Assembly: GCA_012511795.1 (NCBI GenBank)
Contig: JAAZFJ010000296.1
Coordinates: forward strand, 1-39,990
Direction: 5' to 3'
DNA length: 39,990 bases
Origin: Syntrophomonadaceae bacterium
Lineage (GTDB): Bacteria; Bacillota; Syntrophomonadia; Syntrophomonadales; Syntrophomonadaceae
Shown: one piece after another, positions 2,763-31,621 of the stretch
Layout of the letters: the number at the start of each line of letters is the position of its first letter
How positions within the stretch are numbered: position 1 is the first letter of the stretch
Translations under genes and position numbers: made by a program
The notes under the pieces: model-generated
The model's database searches: none
The model's input: the letters and a program-made list of their open reading frames with translations, nothing else
What the model was told of the DNA's origin: nothing

Positions 2763-3576
2763 TACTTATCCTCCTATAGTATATTTCCATTATTTTACTA
2801 GCTGTTTCTTCAACTGCCTTATTGGTAACATCTATTACTGGACAACCTAAACGTTTCATAATTTCATCAGAGTATTCAAGTTCCTCAAGTATTCTTTCAT
2901 AATTTGCATAGTTTGCCTGCCCTTTTAGACCTAGTGTCATCAAACGCTCAGTTCTAATATGATTCAACAAATCCGGTTTTATAGTTAAACCAATGACTTT
3001 TCCTTTTTCCGCTTTAAAAAGCGCATCTGGGGGAGGTACTTCCGGAACTAACGGTACATTCGCGACTTTTATTCTTTTATGAGCCAGATACATGGATAAA
3101 GGAGTTTTTGAAGTGCGTGAAACTCCAACCAATACAATATCTGCCAGGTTGATTCCCCGGGGATCTTTGCCATCATCATATCGAACCGCAAACTCAACCG
3201 CTTCTATACGTTTGTAGTACATTTCGTCTACCTTTCTCAATAAGCCTGGTTCCCTTTTTGGTTCTATTTTACTTACACTTCTTAATGCACTGACCAATGG
3301 TCCTAAAATATCAACACAAATGACTTCCGAATTTTCGGCTGCTTTTTTTAAATGTACAGCCAGTTCCTCAATAACTAAAGTATAGGCAATCATGAATTTA
3401 TTAACCCGTGCCTGATTAATAATCTCATCAATAGTCTGGGTATCCGAAATGTTCGGAACCCTTTTTATCTCCATATCTCCAGAATTAAACTGGCTGGCAG
3501 CCGCCCTCACTACCATTTCTGCCGTTTCTCCGATAGAATCTGATAATATATAGATTCCAGGTAAATGATTAGTCAA
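2755..3576 (-). CDS. ppdR: PPDK regulatory protein (kinase/pyrophosphorylase, DUF299/YqfL)
   Basis: Bifunctional enzyme that inactivates PPDK by ADP-dependent phosphorylation of the Thr beside the catalytic His and reactivates it by Pi-dependent dephosphorylation. The N-terminus IYILSDSIGETAE and the P-loop-like GVSRTSKTP (residues 151-159) are family hallmarks. The ORF-track start at 3612 has no ribosome site. The TTG at 3576 is preceded by GAGGTG with 7-nt spacing and gives MTNHLPGIYILSDS, the expected N-terminus (273 aa). That TTG overlaps the ccpN stop by 8 bp (TTGACTAA). Position between ccpN and ppdK matches both family biology and Bacillus yqzB-yqfL order. Confidence 0.95.
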   Translation of the reverse strand: MTNHLPGIYILSDSIGETAEMVVRAAASQFNSGDMEIKRVPNISDTQTIDEIINQARVNKFMIAYTLVIEELAVHLKKAAENSEVICVDILGPLVSALRSVSKIEPKREPGLLRKVDEMYYKRIEAVEFAVRYDDGKDPRGINLADIVLVGVSRTSKTPLSMYLAHKRIKVANVPLVPEVPPPDALFKAEKGKVIGLTIKPDLLNHIRTERLMTLGLKGQANYANYERILEELEYSDEIMKRLGCPVIDVTNKAVEETASKIMEIYYRRISNV

Positions 3577-4243
3577 ACTCCAACACCTCAGTCCCATTTT
3601 CCGCCAGGTCAAGAAACAGCCTGGCTATGTTTGTTTTAGTTACTTTGCCGACGACCTCGTATTTTTCTTCTCCCTCAACATCAAGAAAGCATTTGACAAC
3701 CGGAAGGCTGTCGATTTCATGTACCACAATCTTCTTTACAACTGAAACCACTGTTTCTTCTGCATAAGCAGTAATTATATTTGGCATGCGTGTCATAATT
3801 ACACTGACCGGAACCTTGTGTATCTCTGCCTGCCCCAGTGTGGTTTTTAAAAAATCCTTACGTGATACTATGCCGGATAAAAGGTTATCATTGCTTACGA
3901 CAAATATACTGCCACAGTCTTCCACGAAAAGAGTAACAATGGCATCATAAATGCTGCAATTTTCTCTTATTATTACCGGCCTGGACTGAATATCCTTGAC
4001 CCGATAGCCTTTTAATATTTTGCCTATCTCATTTACAGTTCTTTCATTTTTGTATGTGTAGCCAACCCGGGGTTTGGCTTCCAAATACCCGGACATGGTC
4101 AAAACAGCTAAATCAGGCCGCAATGCTGCCCGAGTGACATTTAATAGATTGGCGATCTTCTCCCCGGTAATTGGGCCATCTCTTTTAACGATTGCCAGTA
4201 TTTTTTCCTGCCGATCATTCAAGTCGATAATTATCACCACCAA
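3569..4243 (-). CDS. ccpN: CcpN-type transcriptional repressor (HTH + two CBS domains)
   Basis: DNA-binding regulator of the CcpN/YqzB family, which in Bacillus represses gluconeogenic genes when ATP is high and binds nucleotides through CBS domains. An N-terminal winged HTH (GPITGEKIANLLNVTRAALRP, about residues 23-43) is followed by two CBS repeats (about 82-140 and 147-215). It heads an overlapping trio with ppdR and ppdK, so PEP-forming enzymes are a likely target. The start is uncertain. TTG at 4243 gives 224 aa without a clear upstream SD. A near-perfect SD, GGTGGTGAT, lies inside the first codons, which would favour TTG at 4222 but with rather long spacing. Confidence 0.92.
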   Translation of the reverse strand: MVVIIIDLNDRQEKILAIVKRDGPITGEKIANLLNVTRAALRPDLAVLTMSGYLEAKPRVGYTYKNERTVNEIGKILKGYRVKDIQSRPVIIRENCSIYDAIVTLFVEDCGSIFVVSNDNLLSGIVSRKDFLKTTLGQAEIHKVPVSVIMTRMPNIITAYAEETVVSVVKKIVVHEIDSLPVVKCFLDVEGEEKYEVVGKVTKTNIARLFLDLAENGTEVLEFD

Positions 4244-4283
4244 TATGCTATACTTTTTGAGTCATTTTCAATCAATTATATAT

Positions 4284-4312
4284 ACTATATTTAATTTGTT
4301 GAACATGTTCAA
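4284..4312 (-). promoter_or_regulatory. Promoter of ccpN-ppdR-ppdK with palindromic operator candidate
   Basis: Reading the minus strand, TTGAAC, 17 nt, then TATAGT form a good vegetative promoter between glyS and ccpN. The -35 hexamer is half of a perfect 14-bp palindrome, TTGAACATGTTCAA (4299-4312), well placed for a repressor to block polymerase. CcpN itself is the obvious candidate ligand, but the sequence was not matched to any known CcpN site. Confidence 0.55.
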
Positions 4313-4319
4313 TATTTTT

Positions 4320-6386
4320 CTAAACTAATTTACTAAAATCGGCAGCAAAATTACATAAATTTGCAATAATTTTCAACATACCCAAACGGGACGCTTTTAA
4401 TTGGGGATCAGGAGACATTACCATAACCTGATCAAAAAAGGCATCTATAAAAGGTCTCAGGTTCACTATTGCTTTTAGCCCTGTTTCATAATCTTTCATT
4501 TCAAAACTGGCTTTCACTTGCGGACAGACAATTTTTATCTCTTTGAGCAGTTTAATCTCAGTTTCTTCCAAAAGTACAGTTTCTTCAACTTCTTCGCTTT
4601 CCCAGGTTTTACTCAAATTATTTGCACGATTGTATACCACCATAAAGTCTTCCATCATAGCAGATTTTTTGAAATTACTTATTGCCTGTATACGCTGTTC
4701 TATCTCTTCCGGATCTTTCACCGGAGCAGCAAATACTGCATCAATTACATCGTATGAGTAACCTCTTTCTTGAAGAATACTGCGCAACCGCTGATGGATA
4801 AAATCCAAAACATCACTGATAACTTCTTCCCTGGAACGATCCAATTGTTCATCTGCCAAATTGTCATAGGCTTTGCCAATTGATTTTTCTAAATCTATTC
4901 CAGGTTTTTTATCTAGTATTATGGTTGCTATACCGATTGCCTGACGTCTGAGTGCATAGGGGTCCTGGGAACCGCTGGGTTTTATGCCGATAGCAAAAAA
5001 GCTGGTCAAATGATCGATTTTTTCTGCCAGGCTCAAAACAATACCTATAGGTGAAGATGGTAACTCATCACCTGCAAAGCGGGGCAAATAATGTTCATAA
5101 ATTGCATTGCAGATTTCTGCCTTTTCTCCTGCCTTAAGTGCATAATACCGGCCCATTATTCCCTGTAATTCAGGAAATTCATACACCATATTACTTAAAA
5201 GGTCGGCTTTGCATAAAAAGGCAGCCCGGTCTGCCAGTTTATAATCAATTCCTTTCATTTGCCCAGCTATAAATGCTGTATTCATCTGTAGACGGGATAC
5301 TTTTTTCCTTACTGAACCAAGTTTTTCATGGAATAAAACTGAGTCCAGTTTCTCTACCACTTCATCCCAATTCTTTTTCAGATCTTCGTTCCAGAAGAAC
5401 AGAGCATCTTCCAGGCGGGCTTTTAAAACTCTTTCATTACCGGCGCGCACGAAATCAAGATTATCAGCAGTTCCATTATTCACCCCAATAAACCCCGGCA
5501 TTAGTTTCCCCTCTTTATCGAAAACCGGAAAATATCTTTGGTGTTCGATCATGCTGGTAGTCAAAACTTCCTGGGGAACTTCCAGATAGGATGGATTAAA
5601 ACTGCCATAAAAGGCGGTGGGATATTCAACCAGATAAGTTATTTCATCTAATAAGTTTTCATTATCCATAGGCTCACCACCAACTTCAGCAGCCACCGCT
5701 TTAATTTGTCTTGAGATCACCTCTTTTCGCTCTTGCTGGTTTAAAATCACAAAGTTCTGTTTGAGCTGCTCACGGTAGTGGGAAACATTTTTCAACTCAA
5801 TTATTCCATTGGATAAAAACCTATGTCCAATAGTATGCATTACGCTCTCAATATTTTCTATTTTCAGTTCAATAAGCTGGTCATCATAAATAGCTGTCAG
5901 CCACCTTATGGGACGGGCAAATTTGAACTGGTGATAACCCCAGCGCATAGACTTGGGAAAACTTAATGATTGAATAATATCTGTCAATATGGAAGGTAAT
6001 ACTTCCTGACTTAAAAGTCCCTGGTCTTTTTTTATGGCATACATATACTCAACACCTGAGTATTCCCTTACTGTCAGCTCTTTAAAATCCAAGCCCTGAC
6101 TTCTGGCAAAACCGAGGCCTGCTTTACTGGGATTCCCTTCCCCATCAAAGGCTGCACTTTTCTTGGGCCCGCGGTTCTCAACCAATGCATCCTCCTGCTT
6201 TTCGTCAAGTTCTTTGACCAAGAGTGTAAGACGTCGCGGGGTTCCAAAAGTATTGATAGACTGATATCTCAATCTTGCTTTATTTAATTTTTGCTCAGCT
6301 ATATCTTTCAAGTCTGCGATTGCTTTTGGCATATACGCTGACGGTATTTCCTCCACACCAATTTCCAATAATATATCTTTAACCAT
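4320..6386 (-). CDS. glyS: Glycine--tRNA ligase beta subunit
   Basis: Beta subunit of the bacterial alpha2-beta2 glycyl-tRNA synthetase, which binds and positions tRNA-Gly while the alpha subunit carries out aminoacylation. Length 688 aa is typical. The N-terminus LLEIGVEEIPSAYMPKA and the following GTPRRLT segment are characteristic, and the C-terminal third is an anticodon-binding, DALR-like helical region. The ATG at 6386 follows AAGGAGG, which lies within the last codons of glyQ; only 4 bp separate the genes, so the subunits are translated in tandem from one T-box-controlled message. Confidence 0.97.
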   Translation of the reverse strand: MVKDILLEIGVEEIPSAYMPKAIADLKDIAEQKLNKARLRYQSINTFGTPRRLTLLVKELDEKQEDALVENRGPKKSAAFDGEGNPSKAGLGFARSQGLDFKELTVREYSGVEYMYAIKKDQGLLSQEVLPSILTDIIQSLSFPKSMRWGYHQFKFARPIRWLTAIYDDQLIELKIENIESVMHTIGHRFLSNGIIELKNVSHYREQLKQNFVILNQQERKEVISRQIKAVAAEVGGEPMDNENLLDEITYLVEYPTAFYGSFNPSYLEVPQEVLTTSMIEHQRYFPVFDKEGKLMPGFIGVNNGTADNLDFVRAGNERVLKARLEDALFFWNEDLKKNWDEVVEKLDSVLFHEKLGSVRKKVSRLQMNTAFIAGQMKGIDYKLADRAAFLCKADLLSNMVYEFPELQGIMGRYYALKAGEKAEICNAIYEHYLPRFAGDELPSSPIGIVLSLAEKIDHLTSFFAIGIKPSGSQDPYALRRQAIGIATIILDKKPGIDLEKSIGKAYDNLADEQLDRSREEVISDVLDFIHQRLRSILQERGYSYDVIDAVFAAPVKDPEEIEQRIQAISNFKKSAMMEDFMVVYNRANNLSKTWESEEVEETVLLEETEIKLLKEIKIVCPQVKASFEMKDYETGLKAIVNLRPFIDAFFDQVMVMSPDPQLKASRLGMLKIIANLCNFAADFSKLV

Positions 6387-20636: not shown

Positions 20637-20981
20637 TTAGCCTGGAGGCCAAATCATTTCCCTGCCTCCAAGTAGATGATAATGCAAATGCATTACTTCT
20701 TGACCACCCTCGGATCCATTGTTGTTTACCAGTCTATAACCGGTCTTGTCTATTTTCATTTCTTCAGCTATTTTCGCTGCAGTAAGTTGTATATGACCTA
20801 ATAATTCAAGATTTCCCACATTTGTTTCATTCAATGTGCTGATATGACCACGGGGAATTAACAATATATGTACCGGCGCAACCGGTTTTATGTCTTCAAT
20901 AGCAATTAGTTGTTCATCTTCATAAATCACCTTTGCGGGAATCTCCTTTGCAGCTATTTTACAAAAAAGACAATTTTCCAT
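20637..20981 (-). CDS. HIT family nucleotide-binding hydrolase
   Basis: Histidine-triad protein of the HINT/PKCI type (114 aa), which hydrolyses nucleoside phosphoramidates and similar adenylates. N-terminal CLFCKIAAKEIPA has the CxxC found in zinc-binding members, and the triad HLHYHLLGG lies near the C-terminus. The ATG follows AGGAGGTG. It sits between mtaB and rpsU, a common Firmicute arrangement. The physiological substrate is unknown. Confidence 0.96.
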   Translation of the reverse strand: MENCLFCKIAAKEIPAKVIYEDEQLIAIEDIKPVAPVHILLIPRGHISTLNETNVGNLELLGHIQLTAAKIAEEMKIDKTGYRLVNNNGSEGGQEVMHLHYHLLGGREMIWPPG

Positions 20982-21031
20982 CTTTTGTCACCTCCTAGAA
21001 GAAAAGAAAGTGGCCTCCGCAATCACTATTG

Positions 21032-21040
21032 ATTTTACCA
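21032..21040 (-). promoter_or_regulatory. Possible extended -10 promoter for the HIT gene
   Basis: TGGTAAAAT on the minus strand fits TGn-TAnAAT and lies in the 114-bp mtaB-HIT gap, about 50 nt before the start codon. No matching -35 is evident, and no terminator after mtaB was found. Confidence 0.35.
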
Positions 21041-21095
21041 GATATACGAACAAATAAAAACTGCTTTTATAACGAATTCGAGATTAATTCAAACT

Positions 21096-22400
21096 CTAAT
21101 CAATAATCTGCCCAATAACTTGTTGGTTTTCGATTCTCTCAGGAGAAATTTGCACAAAAGAACCAATCATATTATGGGGAGAATGAAACTGAATCTCTAT
21201 ATAATTATCACTCAATCCCAGATAAAGATCCGGCGAAATATGTTCCTGTACCAGTACAGTGAGTTTTTGACCAAGCATATCATTAATAAAGCTGCTTTTT
21301 TTAGCTGCAGCAAGTTTCAGCAAACTTTCACTGCGGGCTGTTTTTTCCCTTGCTTCCACCTGCGGTTTCATTAAAGCTGCTTTGGTGCCGGGACGCGGTG
21401 AATATTTGAATACGTGTAAGGAATGCAATGGTAAATTTTCTAAAAGATTTCGTGTATCAAAAAAATCTTGCTTGTCTTCGCCGGGGAAACCCACCATTAT
21501 ATCAGCAGCTACAGCAACGCCAGGTATTTTTCTGGTTATCTTATTGATCAGGGATTGATAATATTCTCTGGTATAACGCCGGTTCATTAATGATAAAATA
21601 CGGTTGCTGCCGCTTTGCAGCGGAATATGCAGATGACGGCAAATCTTTTGGTGCCCGGCTACAATATCCAACAGCCTGTCATCCAGTTCCAATGGCTCCA
21701 GTGAGCTTAGCCTGATTCTATATTCCCCTTTCACCTGATCAAGAATATATAGTAACAGAGAACTCAAATTCTCTTCTTTTAAATCTATGCCGTAAGTTCC
21801 GGTATGAATTCCGGTTAAAACGATTTCTTTATAACCCAGTGTCACTAGTTGGTTTACTTCTTCCACCACTTTTTCAGGTGTCTTGCTTCTTACCGGCCCC
21901 CGGGCCTGGGGCACAATACAATAAGAACAGAAACTCTGACAGCCGTCCTGTATTTTAATAAAAGCACGGGTTTTTTCGTGTTGCCTGCTGTAAATAACAG
22001 TTTTAAGTAAATCACTGTTTTTTATTCTCTCGTCGAAGATGACAGGCAGTCCCTTTTGAAAATTATGGTTTTCCAGTATGGACGGTAAATCTTCTTTATC
22101 CCGGTTGCCCACAACTAAATCAATACCTTCTATGTCAGCAAGCTGCTTACTGTTAGTTTGTGCCAGGCAACCAACCGCTGCTACGATTGCATCAGGATTT
22201 CGCTTTATTGCCCGCCTGATAACAGCTCTTGATTTCCTGTCACTGACATGGGTAACCGTACAGGTATTAACAACATAAATATCTGCAATCTCTTCGAAGG
22301 GCACTATTTCATAATCCTTTTGTAAAAAAGCTTCGATCAATTGTTCAGTTTCAACTGAATTCACTTTACAGCCCAAAGTGTGGAAAGCTACCTTTTTCAA
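21096..22400 (-). CDS. mtaB: tRNA (N6-threonylcarbamoyladenosine(37)) methylthiotransferase MtaB
   Basis: Radical-SAM enzyme that adds a methylthio group to t6A37 of tRNAs reading ANN codons. The N-terminal UPF0004 domain starts FHTLGCKVNSVETEQ, the radical-SAM cluster motif is CQSFCSYCIVP (about residues 145-155), and a TRAM domain closes the protein. Cys residues of both Fe-S clusters are present. TTG at 22400 with GAGG 7 nt upstream gives MKKVAFHTLGCKVN, preferable to the track start at 22421. Last gene of the hrcA-dnaK run. Confidence 0.96.
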   Translation of the reverse strand: MKKVAFHTLGCKVNSVETEQLIEAFLQKDYEIVPFEEIADIYVVNTCTVTHVSDRKSRAVIRRAIKRNPDAIVAAVGCLAQTNSKQLADIEGIDLVVGNRDKEDLPSILENHNFQKGLPVIFDERIKNSDLLKTVIYSRQHEKTRAFIKIQDGCQSFCSYCIVPQARGPVRSKTPEKVVEEVNQLVTLGYKEIVLTGIHTGTYGIDLKEENLSSLLLYILDQVKGEYRIRLSSLEPLELDDRLLDIVAGHQKICRHLHIPLQSGSNRILSLMNRRYTREYYQSLINKITRKIPGVAVAADIMVGFPGEDKQDFFDTRNLLENLPLHSLHVFKYSPRPGTKAALMKPQVEAREKTARSESLLKLAAAKKSSFINDMLGQKLTVLVQEHISPDLYLGLSDNYIEIQFHSPHNMIGSFVQISPERIENQQVIGQIID

Positions 22401-22423
22401 TCTTATACCTCTTTCAATCAATG

Positions 22424-23170
22424 TTACCCCAAGTCTCCGCCTTCATATAATATTATACTGGCAGCAACTAACCCAGCAGTTTCGGTCCTTAGGATTCCAG
22501 ATCCCAGGCTAATGGGGATCACGGAATTCTTTTTTGCTGCTTCTGCTTCGGAAGGTGAAAAGCCCCCCTCCGGACCAACTATAATTGTAATGCTTTGTGA
22601 TGCCAGACTGCCTTTAAACTTATGTAGTATATCCCTTAGTTTAGTCTTTTCTTCTCCCTCATACAGCATAACTGCTCTTTTATGTTGCAGATCTGCAATT
22701 AATTGGGGGAATTCAACAACTGATTTCACTTCCGGAACAAAATTACGCTTTGATTGTTTACATGCTTCCCGGGCAATGGTTTGCCATCTGCTGGTTTTTT
22801 GTGCAGCTTTTTTCCCGTCCAGCATGACTATCGTTCTCTCGCTTACAAAAGGAATAATGGCAGTTACCCCGATCTCTACTGCTTTTTGGATAACATAATC
22901 CATTTTTTCTCCTTTGGCAATTCCCTGAGCTAAGATTATACTGACAGATGGCTCATTCTGGTGTTGGGAACAACTAAGTATTTCAGCCTGGAGTACACCG
23001 TTTTTATTGCTATGCAGCCTGCAGTTAAATACATTGCCCAAACCATCAAAAAGTTCTACAGAATCTCCTATTCTCAGTCTTAGCACCTTTTCTATATGAT
23101 GAGATTGCTGTTTATCAATTTCTATTAAGTTGTTTTTGATCATATCTGTTGAAATAAAAAAGCGGTGCAA
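22424..23170 (-). CDS. rsmE: 16S rRNA (uracil(1498)-N3)-methyltransferase RsmE
   Basis: SPOUT-class methyltransferase that modifies U1498 in the decoding region of 16S rRNA. An N-terminal PUA-like domain begins MHRFFIS; the knotted SAM site contains IIVGPEGGFSPSEAEAA and LGSGILRTETA near the C-terminus. TTG at 23170 has GGAG 8 nt upstream and yields the family-typical MHRFF start (248 aa); the track start at 23206 lacks support. It follows prmA directly, as in Bacillus. Confidence 0.96.
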   Translation of the reverse strand: MHRFFISTDMIKNNLIEIDKQQSHHIEKVLRLRIGDSVELFDGLGNVFNCRLHSNKNGVLQAEILSCSQHQNEPSVSIILAQGIAKGEKMDYVIQKAVEIGVTAIIPFVSERTIVMLDGKKAAQKTSRWQTIAREACKQSKRNFVPEVKSVVEFPQLIADLQHKRAVMLYEGEEKTKLRDILHKFKGSLASQSITIIVGPEGGFSPSEAEAAKKNSVIPISLGSGILRTETAGLVAASIILYEGGDLG

Positions 23171-23215
23171 TAGTAACACTCCTTTCGCACCACCAGCCAA
23201 TTTCATTTATTTTAA

Positions 23216-24139
23216 CTATGCTTTATGTGCTGCTACTCCAACCCAGTCTACATCAGTTAGTATTTTTTCGGTTACAAAGCCATAAGCCAGAAGCTGTTTT
23301 TGAACTCCCGGGAAACGGCTGTCTACAATCCCGGAAGCGAAAAGATAGCCTCCCGGTTTCAGTGCTTTAGCTGCATGTGGAATGAGCAAATTTACAATAT
23401 CAGCGGTGATGTTGGCAAAAATTATGTCATTCTGCGGTTGTAGCAGTTCTTCAGTTACATCACCCAGTTTCACTTCAATGATATCCTGGAGATCATTAAG
23501 TTTAGTATTTTCACGGGCTACTTTTACTGCTACTTCATCTATGTCAAAGGCAGTTATTTTTCCCGCCCCCATTTTAGCTGCGGCAATGGACAGGATCCCT
23601 GACCCGCAGCCAGCATCAATTATATTTTCTCCGCCTTTAATATATTCATCAATAAAATTAAGACAAAACCGGGTGGAGGCATGAATTCCTGTACCAAAAG
23701 CCATACCCGGATCTATCTTAATGACTACCTCATCAGGATTAGCCTCATATTCTTCCCAGGATGGTTTAATTACCAGGTGTCGTCCCACTTTAAAAGTATG
23801 GTAGTATTTTTTCCATGATTCTTCCCAGTCTTCGTCCCTTACTTCTTCAATAAAAACGCGGCATTTGGTATTAAAACATTTATTTACCTGTTCCAGAGAT
23901 TCATTGATTTCTTCCATTACTTGTCGGTCTTCCTGAAAGTATGCTTTTATCACCACGAAATTATGTTCCAGAAAATCGGGAGATATAGTACTGGCATCGA
24001 ATTGATCTTTTTGCACATATTGACGTGCTGCCTGGGGATCTTCAATAACCACACCGCCAGACCCCAAACGATGGAAAATACCTGCAATCGCTTCTGCACA
24101 TGCTCCTTCAGTTACAACACTGATCTCTTTCCAATTCAT
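23216..24139 (-). CDS. prmA: Ribosomal protein L11 methyltransferase
   Basis: SAM-dependent enzyme that trimethylates ribosomal protein L11. The N-terminal domain begins MNWKEISVVTE. The Rossmann SAM domain has DPGMAFGTGIHASTR, then DAGCGSGILSIAAAKMGA (motif I) and the catalytic-loop IIFANITADIV. Length 307 aa is normal. The ATG follows AGAGG. Its position after dnaJ is conserved across Firmicutes. Confidence 0.97.
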   Translation of the reverse strand: MNWKEISVVTEGACAEAIAGIFHRLGSGGVVIEDPQAARQYVQKDQFDASTISPDFLEHNFVVIKAYFQEDRQVMEEINESLEQVNKCFNTKCRVFIEEVRDEDWEESWKKYYHTFKVGRHLVIKPSWEEYEANPDEVVIKIDPGMAFGTGIHASTRFCLNFIDEYIKGGENIIDAGCGSGILSIAAAKMGAGKITAFDIDEVAVKVARENTKLNDLQDIIEVKLGDVTEELLQPQNDIIFANITADIVNLLIPHAAKALKPGGYLFASGIVDSRFPGVQKQLLAYGFVTEKILTDVDWVGVAAHKA

Positions 24140-24155
24140 TAATTAAAACCTCTTT

Positions 24156-25286
24156 CTATCCCATTGCGTCCTTGAATTTTTCAAATAAGTTCTTCCTGTT
24201 TTCTTTATCTTCATTATCTTCATAAAAAGATGTTAATAGCGTTCTTTGCTTTTTGGTTAATTTAGTAGGGATAGTTACATCGATGATGATTTTTAGATCT
24301 CCCCATTTTTGACTGTTAATGTAAGGTATACCTTTCCCTTTAACGGTTATTATATCGCCAGGCTGTGTGCCTTCAGGAATTTTAACATTGTGACTGGCCC
24401 CGCCTAATAATGGAATTTCCAATTCTGTTCCCAAGGCCGCCTGTACAAAATTAATTGAAAGACGGGTTACAAGATTATGATCCTCTCTTTTAAATTTGGC
24501 ATGTGGCCTTACTACAATGGTGATAAACAAGTCTCCCGGAGGGCCTCCATAGATCCCTTGCTCCCCTTCATTTTGAATTTTAAGGCGCATTCCGGTGTCG
24601 ATGCCTGCCGGTATTCTTACATTTATCTTATGTTTTTTGCGGACTTGCCCGCTGCCCCTACAGGCAGTGCAAGGTTTTTCAATTATTTTGCCTTCCCCTT
24701 GACAGCGCGAACAGGTACGCAATGTTTCAAAACGCCCAAAAGGAGTACTCTGCACTGATTTTGTCTGTCCGCTTCCTTTACATGCAGGACAAGTCTTAAT
24801 CGGGGTACCCGGTTCCGCACCATTACCATTGCATTTTTCACATTTTTCTACGCGGTAAAGTTCCACATCCTTTTGCATGCCAAAAACTGCATCCTCGAAA
24901 TTTATATCAAGACGCATCTCTTTGTCAGCGCCTCTTTGAGGTCCTCTTCTGCGCCGGCCTCCGCCTGCTGCACCGCCAAAGAATAAATCAAATAAATCAG
25001 TAAAACCGCCTGCGCCAAAATCTTCAAAACCACCAAATCCACCAGCACCACGGCTGGGATCAAATGCATCGTGTCCGAACCGGTCATAAGCTGCCCTCTT
25101 TTGTTCATCACTTAATATTTCGTAGGCATCATTGATCTCTTTAAATTTTTCCGCCGCATTTTCGTCATCCCTGGCTACGTCAGGATGGTGTTTTCTGGCC
25201 ATTTGACGATACGCTTTTTTTATTTCCTCTTGTGTAGCATTTCTGGATATTCCTAAAACCTCATAATAATCCCTTTTTGATGACAT
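24156..25286 (-). CDS. dnaJ: Chaperone protein DnaJ
   Basis: Hsp40 co-chaperone that delivers substrates to DnaK and stimulates its ATPase. The J domain carries HPD (residues 34-36) in [12 protein letters not shown] Gly/Phe-rich linker ([15 protein letters not shown]) and four CxxCxGxG zinc repeats (about 147-215) follow, then the substrate-binding C-terminal barrels. The ATG at 25286 with AAAGGTGG upstream gives 376 aa starting [13 protein letters not shown], rather than the track start at 25316. Confidence 0.98.
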
Positions 25287-25317
25287 AATGCCCACCTTTC
25301 TTAAAAACAAGGGCAAC

Positions 25318-25339
25318 CCGGAGACTGTGAAATCTCCGG
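25318..25339. other. Hairpin in the dnaK-dnaJ intergenic space
   Basis: CCGGAGA/TCTCCGG forms a perfect 7-bp GC-rich stem with an 8-nt loop in the 75-bp gap between dnaK and dnaJ; AGGG/CCCT further out could extend it. A T-run follows about nine bases beyond the stem on the minus strand. It may be a weak terminator or processing site lowering dnaJ relative to dnaK. Confidence 0.5.
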
Positions 25340-25361
25340 ATTAAATGGTAACCCTGCGTAT

Positions 25362-27167
25362 TTATTTATCATATTCATCATCCGGGGTGGAGTAATCAGT
25401 ATTGATATAATCTTCGTCAGTGCCATCCTGAGGATTTGCCTGCTCGTACATTTTTGACGAATAATCATAAACCGCTTTGGTAAGTGCTTCTGTTTTCTCT
25501 TTGATCTCTTCCAGATCATTTTCTTGCAAAGCTGTTTGCAAAGCATCTTTGGCACTGGTAATTGCTTCTTTGTTTTCTTCATCCATTTGCTCGGCATTAT
25601 CTTTAAGTAATTTTTCTGCTTGATATACCATACTGTCAGCATTGTTACGGACTTCTATTTCCTTAAACCGCTTTTCATCTTCTTCTGCATGCTTTTCAGC
25701 ATCCTTAACCATTCTGTCAATATCCTCATCACTTAATCCGGTTGATGAGGTTATTGTGATCGTTTGTTCCTTGTTTGTAGCCAAGTCCTTGGCAGTAACA
25801 TGAACAATTCCGTTGACATCTATATCGAATTTTACTTCAATTTGCGGTATTCCGCGAGGTGCCGGAGGAATACCTGTCAATTGGAATCTCCCCAGAGTAA
25901 CATTATGCTCCGCCATTTTTCTTTCTCCCTGCAGAACATGAATATCAACTGAAGTCTGATTATCAGAAGCGGTGGTGAAATTCTGGCTTTTAGCAGTAGG
26001 TATGGTAGTATTCCTTTCAATTATTCTGGTAAAAACTCCTCCCAAGGTTTCTATTCCAAGGGACAAGGGAGTTACATCAAGTAAGACTACGTCAGTAACA
26101 TCTCCTGCCAGAACTCCAGCCTGTATAGCAGCACCTGCTGCTACGACTTCATCGGGATTAATACCTTTAAAAGGCTCTTTACCGGTAAAATTTTTGATGG
26201 CTTCCTGCACAGCTGGGATTCTGGTGGAGCCTCCTACCAGTATAACTTTATCTATTTCATTGGGTTTAAGCCCGGAATCTTTAATCGCCTGCCTTAGCGG
26301 GCCCATGGTTTTTTCCACTAATTCAGCGGTCATCTCATCGAACTTGGCTCTGGTCAGGGTTTTCTCCAGATGCAAAGGCCCTTCTTGTGTAGCTGTAATA
26401 TATGGTATGTTTATATCGGCAGTGATGACCCCTGATAGCTCATGCTTAGCTTTCTCCGCCGCTTCCTTTAAACGGTGCATGGCCATCTTATCATTTCTTA
26501 AATCAATCCTATGTTCTTTTTTAAATTCATCGATTAACCAATTTATGATCTTATCATCAAAGTCATCACCACCCAGTCGGTTATTACCACTGGTAGACTT
26601 AACTTCAAAGACTCCATCACCTATTTCCAGAATGGAAACATCAAAAGTACCGCCTCCCAGGTCAAAAACTAAAATAGTTTGTGTCCCTTCTTTATCCAAT
26701 CCATAAGCTAAGGCAGCAGCAGTTGGTTCATTGATAATACGCAGTACTTCCATTCCCGCTATCTTTCCTGCATCTTTGGTGGCCTGACGCTGAGCATCGG
26801 TAAAATAAGCTGGCACCGTAATAACTGCCTGAGTAATAGGTTGGCCCAAATAAGCTTCAGCATCATTCTTCAATTTTTGCAGAATCATAGCTGATATTTC
26901 CTGTGGTGTATATTTTTTCCCGTCAATTGATACTGTATAATCAGTTCCCATTCTTCTTTTGATAGAAACTACAGTACGTTCCGGGTTTGTAATAGCTTGC
27001 CTTTTTGCAATTCTTCCTGCCAGTCTTTCGTTGGTTTTGGAAAAACCTACTACGGAAGGAGTGATCCTTTCGCCTTCAGCATTGGTTATGATAACTGCTT
27101 CATTTCCTTCCATTACTGCAATGGCTGAATTAGTTGTTCCCAAGTCTATTCCAACTATTTTCCCCAT
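25362..27167 (-). CDS. dnaK: Molecular chaperone DnaK (Hsp70)
   Basis: ATP-dependent chaperone that binds hydrophobic peptide segments. The nucleotide-binding domain contains [13 protein letters not shown] at the N-terminus, [13 protein letters not shown] (about 172-184) and the connect-2 region [15 protein letters not shown]. The interdomain linker appears as [15 protein letters not shown]. The substrate domain and helical lid end in acidic DDEYDK. ATG at 27167, with GGAGGTG upstream, gives 601 aa; the track's five extra residues are not needed. Part of the CIRCE-controlled operon. Confidence 0.98.
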
Positions 27168-27209
27168 CAATAACACCTCCAAAAATATTTATGAATATTC
27201 TTCTTTTAT

Positions 27210-27746
27210 TTATGCCTGGCTGCTTACTTTTACCAAGCTGGGCCTAATTACCCGGCCATTCATAATATAGCCAACCTGTAATTCTTCAATTACAGTATTT
27301 TCTTCATGTTCTGAGCTTGGTTCAACGGTCAGGGGCTGGTGATATTCGGGATCAAAGGGCTGCCCCAGAGACTCAATCCTTTCTACCCCTTCCGCTTTAA
27401 TCAAATCATGCAGGCTGCTGTTGATCATTTCCACACCTTTGTATAGAGCCTCATTAGTCTGTACTCCGCTCGACATTTTTAGGGCCCTTTCCAGATCATC
27501 TATAACAGCCAATATCTTTTTGATCACCGGCAATGTTGCAAATTTCACATATTCATCTCTTTCTCTCACAGACCTTCTTTTCATGTTTTCAACATCCGCC
27601 AGCAAACGCAAATACAAATCTTTGTACTTTTGAGTTTCTTCCTGGCTTTTTGCCAATTCAGCTCTTAATTTACCTATGTCTTCCTCCTTTTCCAAAACTG
27701 GTTCTTCACTATTCATTGTTGTTTCTTTCAAATCCTCTTCTGACAC
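27210..27746 (-). CDS. grpE: Nucleotide exchange factor GrpE
   Basis: Dimeric exchange factor that releases ADP from DnaK. A long N-terminal coiled-coil (about residues 20-75, EELRAEL-type heptads) leads into the conserved DVENMKRRSVRERDEY segment, and the beta domain has GQPFDPEYHQPLT and VGYIMNGRVIRPSLVKVS. The track start at 27779 lies inside the chaperonin gene. GTG at 27746 with GAGGTG 8 nt upstream gives 178 aa starting MSEEDLKE and begins 13 bp after the chaperonin stop. Confidence 0.97.
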   Translation of the reverse strand: MSEEDLKETTMNSEEPVLEKEEDIGKLRAELAKSQEETQKYKDLYLRLLADVENMKRRSVRERDEYVKFATLPVIKKILAVIDDLERALKMSSGVQTNEALYKGVEMINSSLHDLIKAEGVERIESLGQPFDPEYHQPLTVEPSSEHEENTVIEELQVGYIMNGRVIRPSLVKVSSQA

Positions 27747-27759
27747 TGATCTTGCACCT

Positions 27760-29319
27760 CTATTCCAGGATATTTCCATTTATATTTGAATTAGTTTCAC
27801 GCATCTTTATGACTGAATTAATTCGTAATACAGCTGTTGCTACTTCACCTGCTGCTTTAAAAGCATAAGCCTTGACTAAAGTCGGATCTACAATGCCCTC
27901 TGTAAGCATATCGGTAATTTTACCGTTTTCAGAGTTAAAACTGTAATGGGCCGAATTACTATTTTTCTGAGCTGCATTTACCTCTGCCAATTTTTCCAAA
28001 GGGTTAAACCCGGCATTGGCTGCCATGCAGCAAAAGGGCTTCAATAAAGCTTCTTTGGCAGCTAGTATTCCCTGGCTTTCCATTCCTTCAATATCCCTGG
28101 CCATGGTTTCCAAATGTCTTGAGATCCAGACTTCAGCAGCTCCGCCTCCAGGTACTATGCCCCCTTTTATTGATGCCTGAACAGCTGCAGCAGCATCTTT
28201 GGCCATTCTCTCCCTTTCGTCAACAACTTCCTCAGTAGATGCTCCTATTAATAAAGTAACCCATTCCTTACCTTTTCCGTTCAGAAAATAAGTATGTTCA
28301 AGTTTTTCGTCAGTAATCACCTGAGCGGCTTCACCTAAATATGTATTGATCAATTCCATGCTGCTATTCAAAACATTTCTTTTTATTTTACGGGCACCGG
28401 TATGAAGGCATAATTTTTCAATTTCTCGGCCAGATACCCTTTGTAAAACGATAATTCCCGCCTGGGATAAAATCTGCTCAGCCAGGTCATCAATACTGCT
28501 GTCTACCACGATGACATTGATGCCAAGTTCAATACATTTGTTGAGATTTGCCTCAAATAGTCCCCGAGATTTTAAATAGTGCTGAAATCCTGCATCAGTC
28601 CTAAGTGCTTGCCCTTCAACCTCATCAGGTTTTAAGGCATCATCAACCACTAGAATTTTTGCGTCAGTGATTGATGATGGCATATCACGATTAACTGGTT
28701 GTCTATTTATTATCACTCCGGAAAAAACTTTACTTTCAGCGAACTCTTTAGCCACTACAGCATCGGAAAACTTGTAATCCTTATCTTTTATCATCTCTGT
28801 ACCTAATTTTTGCGCTCCCTCGATGATCAACCCAGCCAAATCCCGATATCCGCGGCCTGCTATGACAGCAATATTATTTAATAATTGATCATGCAGAGTG
28901 TTTACTGGATAACTCAGGCTGTTTAATAATTCACATGCCCTTTCAATACCCATATTTATACCTGTGATTACCTTGGTAACAGGAACTCCTTTTAGAATTT
29001 GTTCAGCTCCTTCAGCAATCAAAGCACCGGCTATAATGGTAGCAGTAGTAGTACCATCTCCCACTTCTGCTTGTTGGGCACGGGCAGTATTTATTATCAT
29101 ATGAGCAACCGGATGTGTGACATCCATCAGTTTTAAAATCGTCACTCCGTCATTGGTAACCACAACATCACCAAAACTATCCACCATCATTATGTCCAGG
29201 CCTTTTGGGCCAATGGTTCCCTCAACTGCCCTGGCAATAACCCTGGCTGCACTGGCATTGTTTAATAAGGTTTCAAAACGGTCTTCTTTGAGATTTTTGG
29301 CGAAACTACTTTCAGTCAT
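27760..29319 (-). CDS. Group II-like (archaeal/CCT-type, 'group III') chaperonin in a bacterial dnaK operon
   Basis: A complete 519-residue chaperonin of thermosome/CCT type, not GroEL. It shows [12 protein letters not shown] (36-46, thermosome-like), NDGVTIL (56-62), GDGTTTAT (88-95), VPGGGAAE (389-396) and a C-terminal [20 protein letters not shown]. The ATPase Asp in the equatorial domain appears kept (around 375, AKDAAAAV). The apical region after residue 220 contains the stretch expected for a helical protrusion, the built-in lid that removes the need for GroES. There is no GGM-type C-terminal repeat. The ATG follows AGGAGAG. It lies 26 bp after hrcA and 13 bp before grpE, so it is cotranscribed with both and under CIRCE/HrcA control. 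Similar genes in the same place are known in a few Firmicutes, notably Carboxydothermus hydrogenoformans. Confidence 0.95.
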
Positions 29320-29345
29320 AATCTCTCCTGCTTCCTGTTCAAAGT

Positions 29346-30371
29346 TTATCGATTTTGTCTGAAGACTTCTTCAATTGCAGCACGAACGGTTTCAACTGTT
29401 CCCGCTGCTTTCCAGTATTCCATCCTTATAGGTCCTAATAAACCTATTGCACCTGTTTCCCCCAGAGATTTATAGCCTGCATATACCAGACTTAGTTCCT
29501 TTATATCATCTAACTTGTTTTCATGACCAATGGTTATATCCACTTCATCACCTGTAACATCAGGAATAATACCTTTTAAAACTTCATTGGCTTCCAACAA
29601 GGTCAAAATCTTGCGCAGTTTTTCCAGATCTTTGAACTCCGGTTCATTTAGGATATTAAGGGTACCGCTTAGAAAAAGCTTCTCGTCACCAGTGTTTTTA
29701 AGCAAATTATCGATCTCTTCAAGAGCTAAATCAACAAGTAATCGCTTGTGTTTTAAACCTTCCCGCAGTTGCTGAAGAGACGTCCTGTTTATTTCACTGA
29801 TCTTTTTATTTTTTAGAACTCTATTAAAAACAGCACTTACCTGTTCCAAATCCTCATCATTTAAAGAGCTGGGGACATCTATTCTTCGATGTATGATCAT
29901 TCCAGTATCTGTTACCAATAGAATTAAGGCTTTATCCTTTCCAAGGGGTATCAATTGCATGGATTTGAATTCCTTAAACTTAATAGATGGAACGATAACA
30001 AAAGAAGCATAATTGGTAATCTGGGACAAAAAATAGCCGATCCTGCCAATAAATTCATTTAGTTCATCGGCATTGCTGCTTATTACTTTATTCAATAATT
30101 CTGTTTCCTCATCAGATAGTTTTTGTTTTTCCATAATAAAATCCACGAAGTAACGGAATCCAATTTCAGATGGGATCCTGCCCGCTGAAGTATGGGGCTG
30201 TTCCAAATAGCCCATTTCTTCCAGGTCGGCCATTTCATTTCTAACTGTAGCCGGACTTATTTTAAGTGCATACTTTTTCACCACAGCCCGTGAACCCACA
30301 GGCTCGGCAGTCTCTACATAATCTCTTACAATTGATTCCAGTATTTTGCGTTTTCTCTCATCCAGAGTCAT
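29346..30371 (-). CDS. hrcA: Heat-inducible transcription repressor HrcA
   Basis: Dimeric repressor of class I heat-shock genes that binds CIRCE and usually needs GroEL for activity. An N-terminal winged HTH ([20 protein letters not shown], about residues 18-37, then [20 protein letters not shown]), a GAF-like middle and the C-terminal [14 protein letters not shown] segment are all typical. Length 341 aa is normal. The ATG follows AGGTGAT. It is the first gene behind the CIRCE site, so it is autoregulated. Which chaperonin tunes this HrcA is open, given the adjacent group II-like protein. Confidence 0.97.
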
Positions 30372-30388
30372 TCATTATCACCTGCCTG

Positions 30389-30415
30389 TTAGCACTCTCA
30401 TTAGTTGAGTGCTAA
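30389..30415. promoter_or_regulatory. CIRCE operator (HrcA binding site)
   Basis: A perfect inverted repeat TTAGCACTC-N9-GAGTGCTAA, identical to the CIRCE consensus. It lies just downstream of the -10 element and upstream of hrcA, in the correct place to repress the hrcA-chaperonin-grpE-dnaK-dnaJ operon. Confidence 0.98.
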
Positions 30416-30428
30416 TAGTGTTTCCTAA

Positions 30429-30457
30429 AAAATATCACCTGTACGATTCTTTGTCAA
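30429..30457 (-). promoter_or_regulatory. Promoter of the hrcA-dnaK heat-shock operon
   Basis: TTGACA, exactly 17 nt, then TATTTT on the minus strand, with TG one base before the -10. The CIRCE element begins about 13 bp downstream of the -10. The promoter lies wholly between the hemW stop and hrcA. Confidence 0.85.
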
Positions 30458-30466
30458 GCAAACAAA

Positions 30467-31621
30467 TCAGGCGATAAAATGGCAAAGAACTTCATTTGAC
30501 AGGAAATAACCCCGTCTGGTTAAGAATAGCTGTCCATTCTTATAGTTAAGTAATCCTTTTTGAATATTGTTATCTATAGCTTTACCATATTCTTTTTCAA
30601 TATTAATTGAATAACGCTGATTTAATTCATTTATATTTATTCCCTCACATAGTCTCAAACCCAGAATAATAGTGTCCGAAACCTGCTCTTTCATTGTCAT
30701 GTTCTCCAATTCTTCAACGGCCTGTTTTTTTCCTGAAGTCAGGTTTTTGATATAATCGACTAAGTCGGGTTGATTGATAAAACGTCTATTGTCTATGTAA
30801 CTAACGGCGCCGGCGCCAAATCCCAGGTAATTTTCGCCCCGCCAGTATATCAAATTATGCTGGCATTTAAACTCAGGACGACTAAAATTGGAAAGTTCAT
30901 AATGTCTAAATCCACAGCCAGACAATAAATCGATGGTTCTTTCATACATCTCTGCTTCAGTATTTTCATCACACAGTTCAATAATATTTTGGGCAGCCAT
31001 TCTGGCCATTACTGTCTCTGATCCCAATTGCAATAAGTAGGCAGAAATATGAGCAGGTATGCAATCAATGGCTTTTGTCAAATTCGCTTCCCATCTTTTT
31101 ATGGATTGCCCAGGGATACCATAAATCAGATCCAGGTTAAAATTTTTTATTTTTTTCTTATGAAATAATTCTACAATGCGCAAAATATCATCAGCCTTAT
31201 GGATTCTTCCTAAAACTGATAATTCCTGATCAGAAAAACTCTGTGCACCCACGGAAAACCGATTAACTCCAGCCTCTAGATATTGGTCCATTTTTGGGGC
31301 ATCAATTGTTGCCGGGTTTGCTTCAACTGTTATTTCAGCGGTGGGTAAAACGGGAAATGAATCCTTGATTGTATCCAAAATTCCTTTAATATTCCGGGAA
31401 TTCAACAAACTTGGCGTCCCTCCGCCAAAAAAAATGGTAGTTACAAGTATATTATGCAATTGTTCTGAAGCTGCTCTGATTTCACATATTACTGCCTGAC
31501 AGTAATCATTAAGCAAGTGTTCATCTGAATTATTAACTGAGTAAAAATCACAATATATACATTTATTCTTGCAAAAAGGGATGTGAATATACACCCCTAC
31601 TGGTTTTGCTTCTATTACCAT
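30467..31621 (-). CDS. hemW: HemW-type radical SAM protein
   Basis: Radical-SAM protein of the HemW family, related to coproporphyrinogen dehydrogenase HemN but thought to act as a heme chaperone. The cluster motif CKNKCIYCDFYS (residues 18-29) has Phe where HemN has a fourth Cys, which favours HemW. FFGGGTPSLL follows, and a C-terminal winged-helix domain is present. Length 384 aa is typical. The ATG follows GAGG and starts 11 bp after lepA, an order kept in Bacillus. Confidence 0.93.
   Translation of the reverse strand: MVIEAKPVGVYIHIPFCKNKCIYCDFYSVNNSDEHLLNDYCQAVICEIRAASEQLHNILVTTIFFGGGTPSLLNSRNIKGILDTIKDSFPVLPTAEITVEANPATIDAPKMDQYLEAGVNRFSVGAQSFSDQELSVLGRIHKADDILRIVELFHKKKIKNFNLDLIYGIPGQSIKRWEANLTKAIDCIPAHISAYLLQLGSETVMARMAAQNIIELCDENTEAEMYERTIDLLSGCGFRHYELSNFSRPEFKCQHNLIYWRGENYLGFGAGAVSYIDNRRFINQPDLVDYIKNLTSGKKQAVEELENMTMKEQVSDTIILGLRLCEGININELNQRYSINIEKEYGKAIDNNIQKGLLNYKNGQLFLTRRGYFLSNEVLCHFIA

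Follow-up and report, generated by a model that had tools for sequence, protein, structure and literature searches.

A Group III chaperonin gene within the predicted HrcA/CIRCE-controlled dnaK operon of a Syntrophomonadaceae bacterium

Introduction

Group III chaperonins are defined by their phylogeny, a built-in lid and the lack of a nucleotide-sensing loop (An et al. 2017, PMC5635000). The closest described system is the prototype of the group, Ch-CPN of Carboxydothermus hydrogenoformans (PDB 5x9u and 5x9v, PMC5635000), and Group III genes have already been described in the dnaK operon. By comparison, the Group I chaperonin GroEL has no helical lid and needs GroES, while the Group II proteins (archaeal thermosome, eukaryotic CCT) carry a built-in helical lid and are partnered with prefoldin. 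An et al. 2017 (PMC5635000) point out that bacteria are without prefoldin and propose that the altered lid of Group III could favor contact with DnaK. Group III has been solved structurally and its physiology little studied; its clients, its division of work with GroEL and the hand-over from DnaK are questions raised before (PMC5220055; PMC5635000). Our literature search for surveys of Group III distribution returned nothing beyond the papers cited here.

Here we analyze a 39,990-nucleotide stretch of DNA from a Syntrophomonadaceae bacterium (the window), in which a chaperonin gene, cpn, lies between hrcA and grpE as part of a dnaK gene cluster. The class is already described, and the window gene adds a member from the Syntrophomonas lineage. 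The host is a relative of Syntrophomonas and, judging from that genus, presumably not an extreme thermophile, unlike the host of Ch-CPN.

Class assignment of the window protein

The cpn gene (27760..29319, minus strand) is an intact open reading frame of 519 amino acids with an ATG start and no internal stops. Its product matches the Pfam family Cpn60_TCP1 (PF00118), whose cut-off is 34.3, with a score of 370 bits. The closest natural solved structure is Ch-CPN (5x9u, 445 bits); thermosome structures score about 226-246 bits and CCT about 180 or less. No NCBIfam chaperonin model reaches its own cut-off on the window protein: the three thermosome models give 323-329 bits, far under their cut-offs of 400-671, and the GroEL models at most 164 bits against cut-offs of at least 352.

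We calculated a tree of 67 rows, comprising 57 copies from genomes of the phylum, Ch-CPN (5x9u), thermosomes and GroEL. The window protein falls within a Group III group of 58 rows that includes 5x9u (SH-aLRT 92, not above 95), and thermosomes (SH-aLRT 98) and GroEL (100) form separate groups. It lies nearest to the proteins of Syntrophomonas sp. UBA1368, at 70-71% identity, and of a congeneric genome. A contig scan with the window protein alone recovered one relative, again Syntrophomonas sp. UBA1368. By these sequence comparisons the window protein is a Group III chaperonin, belonging to a separate clade and not to thermosome or CCT proper. The initial annotation had called it thermosome/CCT-type, which is right for the lid and the related fold and has to be amended for the class; placement outside the GroEL clade agrees with it.

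Two further PDB entries carry the label 'Ancestral Group II Chaperonin (ACII)'. The window protein scores 280 bits to 9rwp and twice that, 558 bits, to 9rwq. The latter is without the sensing loop and looks like a Group III ancestor under the wrong label.

Diagnostic residues and the built-in lid

In the alignment, the nucleotide-sensing loop is gone from the window protein, leaving a six-residue gap (GRG------YRD, compared with TGKGAEKAKEK in Group II, where the longer loop holds a conserved Lys). The active-site residues N56, D57, R156 and D375 are kept, corresponding to N55, D56, R155 and D373 of Ch-CPN, among which Asp56 and Asp373 are catalytic; the ATPase motifs are thus intact, as first annotated. 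R156 is Arg in all 127 Group III rows, and L441, equivalent to the inter-ring L439 of Ch-CPN, is Leu in the same 127 of 127. The hydrophobic lid tip is likewise common to both proteins, with L239, F245, Y248 and F255 in place of Leu237, Phe243, Tyr246 and Phe253. The two proteins are 44% identical in the structural alignment and differ at Met417, an inter-ring contact of Ch-CPN that is Leu in the window protein, and at Lys405, which is Ala.

An AlphaFold2 model built from 52 sequences has a mean pLDDT of 89.9. Its helices 236-240 and 242-264 form an apical protrusion, so that the built-in lid expected at annotation is present in the predicted structure. The top fold matches are 5x9v and 5x9u (TM, query length, 0.88 and 0.89), with thermosomes and CCT next. 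Group II proteins share the helical lid and the fold at about 30% identity, although their lid segment is four residues longer than that of the window protein. GroEL rows are gapped at the protrusion in the alignment.

The genome contains one other Cpn60 gene, a GroEL with GroES preceding it. This bears on a reading of the window protein as a divergent GroEL paralogue that works with GroES, for which one could cite the shared superfamily and the presence of GroES in the genome. GroEL and the window protein have ATPase motifs in common and are 25% identical. The low scores of the GroEL models, the starred tree branch that separates the window protein from GroEL, the lid helix in the model and the existence of a normal groES-groEL pair elsewhere in the genome leave this reading with virtually no credibility.

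Operon organization and predicted control by HrcA

The same-strand neighbors of cpn are all identified by NCBIfam or Pfam profiles. Upstream lies hrcA, which encodes the heat-inducible transcription repressor (29346..30371, minus strand; TIGR00331, 318 bits against a cut-off of 197; PF01628). Downstream are grpE (27210..27746, minus strand; PF01025, 168 bits), dnaK (25362..27167, minus strand; TIGR02350, 925 bits, above cut-off) and dnaJ (24156..25286, minus strand; TIGR02349, 449 bits, above cut-off). The placement of a full-length chaperonin gene between hrcA and grpE was therefore annotated correctly. The hrcA stop and the cpn ATG are separated by 26 nt, read directly from the sequence, which include a GGAG Shine-Dalgarno motif. 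The start of grpE, also read from sequence, is likely a GTG at 27746, and the cpn stop codon TAG overlaps its Shine-Dalgarno motif AGAGGTG, so that translation of cpn and grpE is probably coupled.

A perfect CIRCE inverted repeat, the predicted HrcA binding site, lies before hrcA at 30389-30415 (TTAGCACTC-N9-GAGTGCTAA, 0 mismatches), where 100 shuffles gave an expectation of 0. Just upstream of CIRCE and hrcA sits a predicted sigma-A promoter, TTGACA-17-TATTTT (30429..30457, minus strand), which matches the consensus at 10 of 12 positions and is the best coding-strand site in 20800-30700. The CIRCE inverted repeat at a promoter by which HrcA/CIRCE regulons are recognized is thus found here as a predicted site.

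In a pattern scan of the coding strand from hrcA to the end of dnaK we found no terminator-like site. Based on this and on the gene spacing, we infer that hrcA-cpn-grpE-dnaK form one transcript; no feature of the sequence speaks against joint transcription of cpn with grpE and dnaK. A terminator-like hairpin with 13 pairs and a T-rich tail lies between dnaK and dnaJ (25314..25343, minus strand; pattern scan) and suggests possible attenuation. Equal induction of DnaJ is therefore not assured, and the promoter shared by cpn with GrpE, DnaK and DnaJ in the initial annotation is plausible as far as the end of dnaK, with a reservation for dnaJ. The hairpin possibly lowers dnaJ relative to dnaK.

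Genome-wide, two sites only match CIRCE with at most three mismatches: the one described here and a second, also perfect, before groES-groEL. Since CIRCE occurs at both operons, the window chaperonin and GroESL, whose presence elsewhere in the genome had been presumed, probably share one HrcA regulon. A search of the genome for two prefoldin families gave no match, with all four archaeal control genomes positive, in agreement with the published remark on bacteria (PMC5635000).

Distribution and evolution in the phylum

We searched a sample of 399 genomes of the phylum with the window protein. Genomes with GroEL alone give E-values of about 1e-13 to 1e-31, and about 1e-37 or lower was taken as the Group III range. 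A Group III gene or fragment is present in 129 of the 399 genomes (counted from the printed list, fragments included). We compared gene order in 134 loci, counting one per genome wherever duplicates could be recognized. In 132 of them hrcA is the immediate upstream neighbor of cpn, and in 130 grpE is the immediate downstream neighbor; the remainder consists of contig ends, two true exceptions (L030 and L074) and the ambiguous locus L066. Of 134 loci tested for CIRCE, 132 have a perfect copy before hrcA. Given this frequency and conservation, the arrangement is ordinary for the phylum and the description as 'rare' should be dropped; the initial annotation was right that it is not new. In the phylum, GroESL commonly occurs alongside a lid-bearing chaperonin, whose gene nearly always follows a CIRCE, so that a division of clients between the two chaperonins can be tested in many relatives. 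Some genomes, for example G321, G313 and G439, have a Group III chaperonin and seemingly no GroEL, as judged from draft assemblies in which only the top candidates were scored.

Pairwise identities of the chaperonin follow those of HrcA (Spearman 0.55; permuted maximum 0.10) and DnaK (0.49; permuted maximum 0.15), and several genomes of good quality from the window's order lack the gene. The conserved loci and the correlated identities fit one ancient entry between hrcA and grpE, followed mainly by vertical inheritance and by recurrent loss.

These data speak against the view that the dnaK operon recently received an archaeal thermosome gene, encoding a true Group II protein, by horizontal transfer. 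Such an origin could account for the built-in lid, the thermosome-like NCBIfam score of 329 bits and the failure of every NCBIfam model to reach its cut-off. However, the three thermosome models themselves fall far below their cut-offs, the sensing loop is missing, and in the tree the window protein joins Ch-CPN and 56 further copies from bacteria, apart from the thermosomes. The gene also occupies the same position in more than 130 loci, and its identities track HrcA and DnaK well above the permuted controls. We regard a recent transfer as extremely improbable. An ancient transfer into the ancestor of the group is possible.

The gene could also be a decaying, non-functional copy that is kept by the structure of the operon, as its absence from several good-quality genomes of the order and a broken frame within the family might suggest. 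In the finished genome G015 (2,936,195 bp), which belongs to the same family, the frame breaks within a TA dinucleotide tract (L135, about 3473-3504); from the sequence, decay, slippage and sequencing error cannot be told apart as the cause. The loss of the gene in related lineages and this broken frame indicate that the chaperonin is dispensable there. In the window, however, the frame is full-length and the active-site, inter-ring and lid residues are all kept, and intact copies with 66-70% identity occur in two genomes of the same genus, which makes decay of the window gene very improbable. Overall, a functional Group III chaperonin in an HrcA/CIRCE-repressed operon is very likely the best explanation of the locus.

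Proposed mechanism

By homology to Ch-CPN, we infer that a functional window chaperonin would form two stacked rings of eight identical subunits each, which would close on ATP. ATP binding would move the stem loop and the intermediate domain and make the apical domains swing inward. The chamber would be closed, without GroES, by the helical protrusions at about residues 230-264. At normal temperature, HrcA bound to CIRCE would repress both the hrcA-cpn-grpE-dnaK transcript and the separate groESL operon. Heat or unfolded protein would inactivate HrcA, and both chaperonins and Hsp70 would rise together. Ring assembly, ATPase activity and heat induction of the window chaperonin are all expected by analogy. 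That DnaK/DnaJ takes the role of prefoldin and passes clients on to the chaperonin is speculative.

Unusual loci and active-site variants

The two true exceptions to the conserved gene order come from a sister pair of genomes, G234 and G282 (L074, L030; L152, L153). Their gene order is hrcA-cpn-dnaJ, with dnaK and grpE placed together on a separate contig. The tie of cpn to hrcA can thus outlast its tie to dnaK. Loss of DnaK and GrpE from these genomes was considered and ruled out, as both genes are found elsewhere in them. With hrcA rather than dnaK as the constant neighbor in this pair, the Group III chaperonin might itself fold or activate HrcA and so serve as the sensor in a feedback loop, an idea that we consider unlikely. 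GroE is credited with such an HrcA-activating sensor role in Bacillus subtilis.

A few loci show irregularities of other kinds. In the finished genome G342, the chaperonin frame is interrupted toward its C-terminal end, near a run of A (L130, about 4256-4320). In G172, more than 1 kb of extra DNA separates the end of hrcA from the main part of the chaperonin gene (L143, about 2978-4696), and the chaperonin gene itself is interrupted. An apparent insert in L142 (G261) was rejected as a run of N with no real insertion. In G436 (L039), CIRCE is missing before hrcA and the hemN and hrcA frames almost abut near 4045-4068, which may reflect a deletion or an assembly fault.

In eight copies from four families (L091, L097, L099, L111, L115, L117, L118 and L132; also L165 and L167-L169), Ala takes the place of the catalytic Asp56, which corresponds to D57 of the window protein. 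The eight form one clade in the tree, pointing to a single change. They have Lys at position 64 and keep the second catalytic residue, Asp373, and in two of the genomes GroEL retains its own Asp. The clade represents a natural variant of the ATPase site.
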